This document shows, piece by piece, positions 24,164-38,829 of a stretch of 38,829 bases of DNA. Origin of the DNA: Planctomycetota bacterium. Its GTDB lineage: Bacteria > Planctomycetota > UBA1135. The translations under genes and the position numbers were made by a program. The stretch spans positions 1 through 38,829 of the forward strand of contig JAPKEZ010000003.1 of assembly GCA_028821845.1 (NCBI GenBank), written 5' to 3'. The notes beneath the pieces were generated by a model that saw only the letters and a program-made list of their open reading frames with translations, searched no databases and was not told where the DNA came from. The number at the start of each line of letters is the position of its first letter. The first letter of the stretch is position 1.

Positions 24164-25522
24164 GTGAAAAAAAGTCTGCTCCTACCCTTGGCCCTGCCGC
24201 TAGTCATTTCGTTTTGGCTGCGCTCCGCATTTGCTTGGGTAGACACTATCTTTGCCTCGCTTTTACACAGCGATGTTGATGGTGCAATTGGCGACGCTTC
24301 TATCGCGGCAATCGGATTAGCTTTACCTCTCGATTTCTTGCTGACGGCATTTTGGGTTGGCACATCTAATGGAGTGACGGCCCGTCTAGCTTCGGCAATC
24401 GGGGCCAACCGCAATGAAGAAGTCTTGCAAATAAAAAAGTCGACTTACAAAATAATATTCTGTCTGTGTTTGTTCGCCACACTTATTGCTGTCACAGTTT
24501 GGATGTATGCGGAACATATTGGTCTTAATCCAGTAGTGGCAAAACAATTTAAAATTTACGCCACCGTGATGATGCTCGGCTCGGCGCTCACATCGTTTTG
24601 GTCTATTATTCCAGATTCGATTGTAAAAGCACATTACGATACGCGTTCAACAATGTGGGCTGGCTTGTGGTCGAGCGTTACTAACCTCGTCCTCAATGCT
24701 CTGTTTTTGTTTGTATTCAAATGGGGTATTTTCGGTATTGCGTTATCAACGGTTATCGGCCGCGTCGCAGGATTTGTTTACGCTACCATCCGTGCGCGTC
24801 GTCTCGAGAGGCAACATCTGCAATCACTAAGCTCACCGGTGCTCGGAGTAGCTGCGAACCCAGTACGCAAGATATTGCTAGTTGCAATACCATCGTCAAT
24901 CACCTTCATGCTAATGGGCTTCGAATCGTTTGCAATCAATGGCATCTTGAAAGACACCGCCGATTCAGTTTCATCACTCGCAGCTTGGTCAATCTTCGAC
25001 CGCAGCGTGCGTTTTTTGACAATGCCAATCATTGCCGCATCAGTCGCAATGCTGCCGTTGGTGGCGCGCTTGCAGGGCGAAAATAAATGCGAGGACATCC
25101 GTCTAGAGTTACTTGCTGGCGTGCGGGTATCGCTGATTTATGTATTCATCTTCGTCACGCCGATTGTTTATTTCGTCGGACCACTAATTGCCAGCGCTTT
25201 GTCTGATTCATCAGCCACGCAACTCGCAACTCAAGATGTGATCTACTTAGTGCCGCTTGCCATTCTAGGTATCGCGCCATTCTTGTTATCGCGCGCAACA
25301 TTCGACGGATTGCAGCGCCCGCGTCCGGCATTAATTGCTTCAGGCGTACGCACCTTCGTCTGCGTTATACCGCTTGCGATTTACGGTTCAATCAACCACG
25401 GCTTGTTTGGATTAAGCCAGGTACAAGGAATAAGCCTAGGTTACATCGCAGGTTTAATGCTTAGCAGCCTAGGCTATTGGTTATGGACGACGAAAAATCT
25501 TAGTCGTCTGCAGAATCGCTAG
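24164..25522 (+). CDS. MATE-family efflux transporter
   Basis: 12-TM type protein; FWVGTSNGVTARLASAIGANRNEE, GLWSSVTNLVLNALFLFVFKWGIFGIALSTVIGR; proposed GTG start. Confidence 0.8.
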   Translation: MKKSLLLPLALPLVISFWLRSAFAWVDTIFASLLHSDVDGAIGDASIAAIGLALPLDFLLTAFWVGTSNGVTARLASAIGANRNEEVLQIKKSTYKIIFCLCLFATLIAVTVWMYAEHIGLNPVVAKQFKIYATVMMLGSALTSFWSIIPDSIVKAHYDTRSTMWAGLWSSVTNLVLNALFLFVFKWGIFGIALSTVIGRVAGFVYATIRARRLERQHLQSLSSPVLGVAANPVRKILLVAIPSSITFMLMGFESFAINGILKDTADSVSSLAAWSIFDRSVRFLTMPIIAASVAMLPLVARLQGENKCEDIRLELLAGVRVSLIYVFIFVTPIVYFVGPLIASALSDSSATQLATQDVIYLVPLAILGIAPFLLSRATFDGLQRPRPALIASGVRTFVCVIPLAIYGSINHGLFGLSQVQGISLGYIAGLMLSSLGYWLWTTKNLSRLQNR

Positions 25523-35617: not shown

Positions 35618-36199
35618 ATGCAGCGTTACAAGCACCGCCAAATATTAGATGCCGCCGGCGTCTCTGTGGCATTAGATGAACTTGCTTTAAAGCTTCACCC
35701 GCTGCTTGGCGATGATGAGGTGACCGCAATTCCAATCATGGGCGGGGCGATGATTTTCGCCGCCGATTTGGTGCGCCGTCTACCACCAGGCTTAGTTATG
35801 GATTTCATCCGTATTCAAACTTATGGCGATTCGACTTCACCACAAAGCGAGCCTAAAGCCGATTGGGTGCCGCAGGCTGAAAACGTAACTGGCAAGCACA
35901 TTTTACTTATGGACGACATTCTAGACACCGGTCGTACCATGAACTATGCGCGTAATTTTTTAATTAATGAGATGGGCGCCAGCAAAGTTACAGTCGCCGT
36001 GTTGATTGATAAGCCAGCGCGGCGTGCAATCGACATCGTGCCGGATGCCGCGGCGATTAACCTCGATGAAGATTTGTTCTTAGTCGGTGTCGGTTTAGAT
36101 TTTAAGGGCCGCTACCGTAACGTTCCTAATTTGTTAGCGCTAGAAACAGGCATTGATGGTATGCCAATAGAAAACGAAAAATGGAAAACCTCGCAGTAA
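35618..36199 (+). CDS. hpt: hypoxanthine phosphoribosyltransferase
   Basis: PRPP motif HILLMDDILDTGRTM; IPIMGGAMIFAADLVRRL; VGVGLDFKGRYRNVPNL. Confidence 0.9.
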   Translation: MQRYKHRQILDAAGVSVALDELALKLHPLLGDDEVTAIPIMGGAMIFAADLVRRLPPGLVMDFIRIQTYGDSTSPQSEPKADWVPQAENVTGKHILLMDDILDTGRTMNYARNFLINEMGASKVTVAVLIDKPARRAIDIVPDAAAINLDEDLFLVGVGLDFKGRYRNVPNLLALETGIDGMPIENEKWKTSQ

Positions 36200-37173
36200 C
36201 CGCTGAATGGAAAGGCTGCTTGCTCGACGAGTACATCGTTGCGCATTGGCCTGATATATCTAAAGGACGTCTTCGCGATTTGATTCGTGGTGGCGCCATC
36301 AATATCGAGGGCATGAGCGTGCAACCGAGTGCTAAGTTGAAAGAAGGCCAGTTGATATTGATTGACCATGACATGTCAACCGAAAAGCGTATGAAGAGCG
36401 CTGACATTGATTTAGAAATTCTTTATCAAGATGAGCACTTGGTCGCGGTAAATAAACCAGCCGGCATTCCGGTTGAGCCAAGTCGCTGGGGAGAACATCC
36501 CTTACACCTTAGTGGTGCACTTTTAAGTTGGGCGCAAAAACGTGAGCTCGAAGGCCCGCTGCAACAACGTCCGCGTGCTTTGCACCGTATTGATTTGGGT
36601 ACTACGGGGGTGATGCTTTATGCGTTGTCGCTAGAGGCCGAGCGCTATTACCGCGAGTTGTTTGCCAACCGTAAGATCGATAAGAAATATCATGCACTGG
36701 TATTGGGAGAAGTACATTACCCCGGAGTTGTTGATTCGCCGATTGCTCCGGATGCGAGCGCCGGAGGTTTGATGCGCGTGTATAAGCACGGTAAAGAGTC
36801 GTTAACCGAATACGAAGCGCTAACAATTTTTCATGGCTATACTTTAATCGAGGCTAGGCCAAAGACAGGGCGCACGCATCAGATTCGTGTTCACATGTCA
36901 TCGGTGGGGCATCCGTTGGTAGTAGACCCGCGTTATGGCGGTGCGGAAAGTTTTATGCTGTCGGAAATTAAACGCGACTACCGACCTAAAGCAGGACGTC
37001 CTGAAAAACCGCTAATCGACCATTTGACTCTGCATGCGCATTCAGTTGGTCTTCCTAAGTTCGGTAGCGACGAGATGTTGCATATCGAAGCGCCTTATCC
37101 GAAAGATTTGCGAGTCACTTTGCGTAACTTAGCTAAGTGGCGCGAGGCGCGTGTTGGGCCGTGGGGTAATTAA
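36181..37173 (+). CDS. RluA-family pseudouridine synthase with S4-like N-terminus
   Basis: AVNKPAGIPVEPS, ALHRIDLGTTGVMLYAL (catalytic Asp), EARPKTGRTHQIRVHMSSVGHPLVVDPRYG. Confidence 0.93.
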   Translation: MENLAVTAEWKGCLLDEYIVAHWPDISKGRLRDLIRGGAINIEGMSVQPSAKLKEGQLILIDHDMSTEKRMKSADIDLEILYQDEHLVAVNKPAGIPVEPSRWGEHPLHLSGALLSWAQKRELEGPLQQRPRALHRIDLGTTGVMLYALSLEAERYYRELFANRKIDKKYHALVLGEVHYPGVVDSPIAPDASAGGLMRVYKHGKESLTEYEALTIFHGYTLIEARPKTGRTHQIRVHMSSVGHPLVVDPRYGGAESFMLSEIKRDYRPKAGRPEKPLIDHLTLHAHSVGLPKFGSDEMLHIEAPYPKDLRVTLRNLAKWREARVGPWGN

Positions 37174-37240
37174 CATCGAGCGCTGAGCAGTGGCAGGTAC
37201 GGCGCCCACGGTAATAATCAGCAGTAAATGGGTATTTGGG

Positions 37241-37269
37241 TATAATATGCCTGACGGCATTTCCCGTCA
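37241..37269 (+). promoter_or_regulatory. TATAAT -10-like element and 5'-leader hairpin upstream of truD
   Basis: TATAAT at 37241-37246; perfect 6-bp stem TGACGG-CATTTC-CCGTCA at 37252-37269. Confidence 0.45.
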
Positions 37270-37292
37270 CCACTGCATAATGTAAATGACCC

Positions 37293-38829
37293 ATGCGATT
37301 AAAACGCACCGTAAATGATTTCCGTGTTAGCGAATTGCTAGACGACGACTCCCTGCCCCATATGGGCGGTAATTTTACGATTTATCGTATTACTAAAAAG
37401 GGGCTAACTACTTTCGAGGCCGCCGATATTTTGGCGAAAGGCGCCGGCGTTGAACGCGCTAATGTCAAGTATGCCGGTTTGAAAGACAAAGATGGCATCA
37501 CTTCACAGGTGATGACTGTTGAAGGTGGCAAAACTGTCAGCTTTCGCGATCAGTCTTTGACGATTCGCCTGTTGGGCAAAACTAATCGTCATGTCGAGTC
37601 GACTGACAGCGAGGGTAACTCGTTTGAGATTGTTGTGCGCGACCTTGAAGCCGATGACATGCGGCGCTTGCGGGTGAATATGCTCGAGTTGAACAAACTG
37701 CATATTCCCAATTACTTTGATGACCAACGTTTCGGTTGTCTACGCCACGGCCAAGGATTCGTGGTACGCCAGTTGTTGAAAGGCCGACCCGAGTTGGCGT
37801 TACGTGCAATGTTGGCAGCGCCGTCTCCTTACGGGCCCGACGTTATTGAAACATTCAAGAAGGGCATTCAGCGTCGTTGGGGTAACTGGGAAGAGTTAGC
37901 CAGTTACACTAAGCATCGCCGTGGTTCATCAGCATTTGAATTTTTACATCAAAACGGCGATGATTTTGTTGGTGCGATTGAGCGGGGCATTGCGTCACGT
38001 GAGAAAACGATTCACTTGTTCGCTTACCAGTCCTTCTTATGGAATCGCGCCGCTACACATTTCGTGAAGTCGGTAGTTGGCGAAGAAAATGTTGCATGGC
38101 TTCCACATGATGCGGCACCGCTTGCTGTATACCGTGAACTGACTGATGAGCAACGCGCTAAATTGCAAGCCTTTAAGTTGCCGCTGTTAGGCCCTGGGGT
38201 TGAGTTGAATGAAGATGCAGCACGCTGTTATAAATTAGTCTTCCGTGAAGAAGGTTTTGACATGCAACAATTCTTAGACCTCGACATTTCAGGGTTCCGC
38301 CCATTACATGAAGAGCGTCAGTTTTTAATTACACCAGAATTTTTGCGCGGAGCTCCGGCTGAGTCTGATGAGATTTATAAGCGTCGTCATAAGATGCGTA
38401 TTCGTTTTTCATTACCGCGCGGGCATTATGCCACCTTGGTGTGTAAACGATTGCTGATGCCGACCGAGAAAGATTATATGCATTTGCGTATTTGGGTGGC
38501 ACGCCACTCGCTCGATTGGCCAGATGAGATGGGCCGTGCCAAAACTCTAGATGTCGCCGCAGAAAAGTTATACCATGACGAGCGGACACGTCGCGTGCTC
38601 AATAAATACGATCGCGCTCATCCTGAACAAGCGCGCAAGCGTTATGGCAGTGGTGACGGATACCGTGGCAACCGCGAAGGCAGTGGCAGCGGTGGCGGGT
38701 ATCGTGGCAACCGTGAAAGTAGCGGGAGCAGTGACGGATACCGTGGTAATCGCGAAAGCAGCGGCAGTGGCGGCGGATACCGTGGCAACCGCGAAGGCGG
38801 CAGAGACGGTGGATACCGTGGCAACCGCG
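37293..38829 (+). CDS. truD: tRNA pseudouridine(13) synthase TruD with Gly/Arg/Tyr-rich repeat tail, partial (open at right edge)
   Basis: Manual translation: MRLKRTVNDFRVSELLDDD..., YAGLKDKDGITSQVMTV (catalytic Asp), NYFDDQRFGCLRHGQGF, FAYQSFLWNRAAT; then the repeat tail. Not in the ORF track because open at the edge. Confidence 0.93.
   Translation, partial: MRLKRTVNDFRVSELLDDDSLPHMGGNFTIYRITKKGLTTFEAADILAKGAGVERANVKYAGLKDKDGITSQVMTVEGGKTVSFRDQSLTIRLLGKTNRHVESTDSEGNSFEIVVRDLEADDMRRLRVNMLELNKLHIPNYFDDQRFGCLRHGQGFVVRQLLKGRPELALRAMLAAPSPYGPDVIETFKKGIQRRWGNWEELASYTKHRRGSSAFEFLHQNGDDFVGAIERGIASREKTIHLFAYQSFLWNRAATHFVKSVVGEENVAWLPHDAAPLAVYRELTDEQRAKLQAFKLPLLGPGVELNEDAARCYKLVFREEGFDMQQFLDLDISGFRPLHEERQFLITPEFLRGAPAESDEIYKRRHKMRIRFSLPRGHYATLVCKRLLMPTEKDYMHLRIWVARHSLDWPDEMGRAKTLDVAAEKLYHDERTRRVLNKYDRAHPEQARKRYGSGDGYRGNREGSGSGGGYRGNRESSGSSDGYRGNRESSGSGGGYRGNREGGRDGGYRGNR
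38641..38829 (+). repeat. degenerate in-frame coding tandem repeat (about 13-aa unit GSGSGGGYRGNRE)
   Basis: YGSGDGYRGNRE / GSGSGGGYRGNRE / SSGSSDGYRGNRE / SSGSGGGYRGNRE / GGRDGGYRGNR. Confidence 0.9.

Follow-up and report, generated by a model that had tools for sequence, protein, structure and literature searches.

An RG-rich repeat tail on a planctomycete TruD pseudouridine synthase is a clade-level feature and may act as an auxiliary RNA-binding arm

The window analyzed here is a whole contig of 38,829 bases (G000:C114) from a Planctomycetota MAG of 1.83 Mb, which comprises 196 contigs and is about 85% complete. Near its right-hand end we found a conserved cluster on the forward strand, as are the parts of the window's truD given below. 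The cluster begins with an hpt-like phosphoribosyltransferase gene (35618..36199; Pfam PF00156, E = 3.9e-22) and continues with a gene for an RluA-type pseudouridine synthase (36181..37173; Pfam PF00849, E = 1.7e-29), which is also the upstream neighbor of truD in relatives. Then comes truD itself (37293..38829), recognized from its ORF and from Pfam and PDB matches, which encodes a core, a family-specific extension, and an RG-rich repeat tail. As a sequence-only reading of this DNA had stated, the truD frame is open at the window edge; we found that this edge is the contig end and that the contig breaks off inside the repeat. Family members keep the gene order hpt-like, RluA-type synthase, truD, mtnP-like (with YigZ/IMPACT-like after it in some), and sister families keep part of it. 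At many loci, truD ends within or immediately before the start of the next gene. This arrangement excludes a separate gene for the tail and suggests that truD and the downstream gene are translationally coupled. Clusters with overlapping starts and stops were seen across the order (window 35618-38829; L161-L178). Elsewhere, the window contains a small tandem repeat (25259-25294; period 17, 2.1 copies).

By its sequence, the window protein has an intact TruD core. It matched PF01142 (E = 1.8e-55, 188.9 bits) over residues 2 to 386, corresponding to positions 17 to 411 of the 412 in the profile. The NCBIfam TruD models matched it with E values down to 5.2e-70, yet under their curated cutoffs, which marks it as a divergent TruD subfamily. 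The closest solved chains were all TruD or PUS7 proteins (1z2z, E = 3.3e-19; E. coli 1szw, 1sb7, and 1si7). Alignment to 1szw and 1z2z identified D65 (codon 37485..37487) as the catalytic aspartate, in AGLKDKDG where E. coli TruD has AGQKDKHA, and placed the motif NYFDDQRFG (NYFGAQRFG in E. coli) at residues 140 to 148 (37710..37736). Both are invariant in our TruD alignment (A1).

Searches with the protein and with PF01142 returned one TruD in each family genome examined, so the tailed enzyme is probably the family's housekeeping Psi13 synthase. Some relatives in the order have a second, compact TruD. The tRNA-Glu(UUC) of a related genome (G003) begins GGTCCCATCGTCTAG and has a U at position 13, in the GTCTAG context also found in E. 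coli. The TruD of Vibrio cholerae makes a single Psi13, in tRNA-Glu (PMC12588516). At G133:C13:24289-25290, in a genome with two other TruD copies, a single open frame holds two PF01142 pieces side by side, possibly an extra, rearranged TruD.

Past the Pfam core, the window protein continues with a conserved extension (residues 390 to 417; 38460..38543) that contains PTEKDYMHLRIWVARHSLDWPD, which is present in the family and missing from the compact TruD of L005. A charged, variable linker follows (residues 418 to 449; 38544..38639). We then found a TRF array at 38646-38829 with a period of 39, 4.8 copies, and 79% matches. Read in frame, it consists of unit 1, RYGSGDGYRGNRE (38640..38678); unit 2, GSGSGGGYRGNRE (38679..38717); unit 3, SSGSSDGYRGNRE (38718..38756); unit 4, SSGSGGGYRGNRE (38757..38795); and a shorter unit 5, GGRDGGYRGNR- (38796..38829), cut by the contig end. 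The earlier description of at least five 13-residue copies was thus right about the array and slightly generous in its count, as four units have 13 residues and the fifth is shorter and cut.

The complete gene lies in a near-identical genome (L002; JAQWRF010000360.1), whose sequence reads through the whole of truD. Its TruD has 595 amino acids and seven YRG[N/K]R units. After the repeats come a unique stretch and a terminal ADSPW motif, ADSPWAQAKRDKANDND; the C-terminal stretch is PSSDAPADSPWAQAKRDKANDND. The stop codon overlaps the ATG of a downstream mtnP/phosphorylase-like gene by 8 nt. Between the window and L002, the core differs at 28 of 1,348 bases, 26 of them at third positions, with one amino acid change (A442D). 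The repeat units of the two genomes differ in number, order, and kind, which shows that the array is mobile in evolution. Within the GYRG[N/K]R anchor of 12 units, 12 of 12 departures from the majority base fall at third codon positions, a count that is indicative and not a formal test since the rows are related. With anchor variation confined to third positions, the tail looks as if it is translated in the TruD frame and selected at the protein level. The earlier argument that codon variation speaks against an artifact therefore held, and the read-through copies agree with it. That the tail is real and part of TruD is likewise upheld by the in-frame ORF (37293-38829), the TRF array, and the complete gene in L002.

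We found that the composition of the tail is extreme for the source genome. R+G makes up 55% of the last 62 residues of the window TruD versus a mean of 13%, and among 13,923 windows from 259 kb of the source genome, those within 10 points of this value came solely from the TruD tail. The window tail is nearly charge balanced, with D/E interspersed with R, and its RG dipeptides are about 13 residues apart. Thandapani and colleagues reportedly defined the RGG/RG box in 2013 as RG or RGG repeats separated by 0 to 4 residues. Neither the window tail nor the L002 tail has this spacing, and we therefore call the tail RG-rich and not an RGG box. Several relatives' tails do have di-RG or di-RGG spacing; di-RG is present in 11 of the 25 tails from the family and in 9 of the 13 from the order. 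The composition supports intrinsic disorder. An AlphaFold2 model of the L002 protein has pLDDT values below 50 at residues 452 to 581, within a model that is poor as a whole (mean 45.9, five-row alignment) and thus says no more than that confidence in the tail is low. When the tail was used as a protein query against the source genome and three related genomes, it matched truD itself and no similar tails, as such searches discount similarity of low complexity. In six genomes, a DNA pattern for RG dipeptides two residues apart was uninformative at their high G+C.

The sequence-only reading had taken the tail to be unusual for its clade. This was not borne out: we obtained TruD from 25 of 26 family genomes, and all 25, from 16 genera, have at least 61 residues past core position 390. 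Such tails are routine in the clade, an outcome that the reading itself had named as a refutation, and the idea of a local oddity gives way to a clade-level feature. The first ~28 to 35 residues are the conserved extension, and the remainder is polar and mostly R/G-rich. Four of the 25, including the window protein, are truncated by contig ends, and the other three also end in the tail. Some family tails have only about 60 to 80 residues and few RG dipeptides (G018 and G021). Most TruDs of the sister families also have a polar tail. Across the 13 genomes added from elsewhere in the order, the tails of the TruD orthologs range from 4 to 621 residues and are long and R/G-rich in most. The frame of the tailed TruD has 1,008 residues from match to stop in a two-contig genome (G179), 925 in G280, and 709 in G116, which has its own GGHRSDGGGYQ-type repeats. 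The orthologs of G219 and G250 are almost without a tail, which indicates that TruD chemistry does not generally depend on one.

In a tree of the core, the tailed TruDs form one clade (100/94 support, 37 rows), and the compact TruDs of G179, G280, and L005 fall outside it. Two lineages that adjoin the tailed clade (G302 and G069) have R/G-rich tails too. In the rest of the phylum, most TruD frames are near core length, stop-to-stop frame lengths being upper bounds. These comparisons draw on a sample that includes MAGs, in which tails often coincide with contig ends and the G003 frames contain masked bases; outside Planctomycetota, they covered the PDB and control genomes. The sequences show that tail length and repeat order evolve fast, and tail sequence diverges freely outside a short motif, SPW.

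SPW occurs 17 times in 14 of the 20 complete family tails, and 12 of these occurrences are in the last 45 residues. When each tail was shuffled (2,000 trials), SPW appeared in a mean of 0.36 tails and a maximum of 4, versus 14 observed; this test ignores relatedness, but 9 of the 15 genera are represented among the 14 tails. In one genome (G011), the TruD frame has 970 residues, includes three Pfam S1 RNA-binding domains with RG-rich stretches on either side, and ends in SSPWGR. This fusion (L163:4449-7361; G011:C25) is in frame, with mtnP 4 nt downstream. We found no TruD-S1 fusion in the other family genomes. The S1 part was also sought as a stand-alone tailed protein in the family, and the inspected matches were S1 domains of PNPase, Tex-like, and other proteins.

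Prokaryotic proteins that bind or process RNA are enriched in arginine-rich low-complexity regions (PMC6821194). We scanned 1.52 Mb (47%) of the G003 genome, comprising 1,349 non-overlapping ORFs, for RG-rich stretches and found them in a Tex-like/S1 protein, PNPase, a DeaD helicase, an RRM protein, an RlmI-like methyltransferase, an N6/N4-methylase-like protein, and a protein with a Card1-like nuclease match; a RhlE-like helicase has a G-rich tail. The carriers in the scanned part are mostly RNA proteins. Consistently with the earlier remark that the TruD tail resembles those of RNA-binding proteins, such tails occur in this relative on helicases, PNPase, an RRM protein, and an S1 protein. 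In the source genome (259 kb sampled, at the thresholds used), TruD was the sole match, so the RNA-enzyme pattern rests on G003. In the closest genus, the RlmI-like methyltransferase carries SPW or NPW in an RG-rich stretch at its N terminus.

Individual carriers have features of their own. The RlmI-like rRNA methyltransferases of the closest genera (L114:6714-8153 in G003:C14; L181-L187) have an MGSPW start or NPW/SPY variants in the N-terminal RG-rich stretch. The N6/N4-methylase-like protein (L106:18246-19187; G003:C6) has a C-terminal RRGGGGGRSGGGGQRRGGGGGPWNSGR tail with PW near its end. The Card1-like nuclease match is weak, and the protein (L132:4055-6628; G003:C8) has long RG-rich and lysine/alanine/proline-rich disordered regions.

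The reading that we lean toward, and hold to be somewhat probable, is that the only TruD of this family bears a disordered auxiliary RNA-binding arm that includes a short docking motif. We base it on analogy with the R-rich regions of prokaryotic RNA-binding proteins, on the capture of S1 domains in G011, and on the RNA proteins that make up most of the other RG-rich carriers in G003. According to this model, the arm would bind RNA with low specificity, its arginines and tyrosines contacting the RNA backbone and bases. Such contacts would keep TruD near structured RNA, that is, tRNA-Glu and probably other transcripts. The tail would thereby raise substrate capture and perhaps help to remodel the D-arm so that U13 becomes reachable. 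SPW would be the short motif through which a shared partner docks. Slippage or recombination could alter the number of repeats and leave function intact, since composition alone would be constrained. Several observations weigh against this reading: the window tail is nearly charge balanced and lacks canonical RGG spacing, the tails of G018 and G021 are short with few RG dipeptides, the orthologs of G219 and G250 are almost tail-less, and the tail query retrieved no similar tails from the source or three related genomes.

It is possible, although rather unlikely in our judgment, that the tail is instead an assembly or addressing device, in which RG/Tyr stickers and SPW would bring TruD and similarly tailed RNA enzymes into an RNP condensate or a multienzyme complex, much like BR-bodies or the tails of Cbf5 and Gar1 in the nucleolus. 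The recurrence of RG-rich stretches on RNA modification and decay enzymes of one genome (G003) fits this proposal, as do the SPW or [SN]P-aromatic motifs beside RG-rich stretches at the N terminus of the RlmI-like methyltransferase in the closest genus (MGSPWDN..., NNPWGN..., and GRSPWDD...). In addition, PNPase condenses together with RNase E in the known BR-bodies (PMC10412687), and the disordered tail of the pseudouridine synthase Cbf5 is required for Cbf5 condensation (PMC11528048); by analogy, condensation of tailed TruD is possible. In contrast, SPW was found in just one other clearly disordered terminus among the 1,349 G003 ORFs, which lends little support to a common address tag, and the motif of the RlmI-like enzyme is limited to part of the family and absent from the window's genus.

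We consider it improbable that a tolerant C terminus has merely gained low-complexity sequence in a largely neutral way and stays in frame only owing to the overlap with the downstream gene. Tail lengths of 61 to 621 residues, the lack of sequence conservation outside SPW, the different repeat number and order in two near-identical genomes, and the few orthologs without a tail all fit neutrality. Neutrality accounts poorly for a tail in 25 of 25 family members from 16 genera, a consistent polar, R/G-biased composition, base changes in the repeat anchor at third positions only, a conserved SPW, and S1 domains captured in one lineage. Finally, although the window contig ends in the repeat, as is common for assemblies, and three other family contigs end in the tail, we dismiss as extremely unlikely an assembly artifact or a fusion with a separate gene, which the sequence-only reading had also named as a refutation: independent assemblies (L002, L003, and L004) read through in-frame tails to a stop directly at the conserved mtnP, and codon-level variation between units also counters misassembly.

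The protein resembles bacterial TruD (E. coli, PDB 1SB7/1SI7/1SZW; PF01142) in its core, catalytic aspartate, NYF..QRFG motif, and U13 in a tRNA-Glu. Solved bacterial TruDs have 368 to 379 amino acids, whereas the family protein, complete in L002, has 595, with a short conserved extension and an RG-rich tail ending in SPW. In being R/G/Y-rich, of low complexity, and at the end of an RNA enzyme, the tail is like those of RNA-binding proteins such as DEAD-box helicases, RRM proteins, and the PNPase of the clade. It differs from RGG/RG-box proteins in the wide RG spacing of the window tail and in its carrier, a tRNA pseudouridine synthase. A disordered, charged tail on a pseudouridine synthase or its partner also recalls the KKE/D tail of Cbf5/dyskerin and the GAR domains of Gar1/Nop1, which affect recruitment and condensation (PMC11528048). 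Cbf5, however, is a TruB family enzyme with a lysine-rich tail, whereas TruD is of an unrelated subfamily and uses no guide RNA. The C-terminal disordered region of RNase E in BR-bodies is another disordered tail on a bacterial RNA enzyme; RNase E has motifs that recruit partners, whereas the TruD tail offers composition and SPW.

We think it a long shot that TruD, the RlmI-like methyltransferase, PNPase, the DeaD/RhlE helicases, and the RRM and S1 proteins, through RG-rich tails and, on some, SPW, gather RNA modification, folding, and decay into one RNP body, a bacterial counterpart of the snoRNP tails that organize the nucleolus. In the open-license literature searched, we found no description of an RG-rich tail on a bacterial TruD, which is weak evidence of absence, and no paper on TruD in planctomycetes. 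Among modification enzymes, TruB and TrmA are the only ones known to chaperone tRNA (PMC11301382). If the tail binds RNA, a strictly tRNA-specific bacterial enzyme would have gained a general grip on RNA across a whole family. It would then become testable how disordered tails change the range of targets that a stand-alone pseudouridine synthase acts on, and the conserved SPW offers a concrete handle for a partner search.
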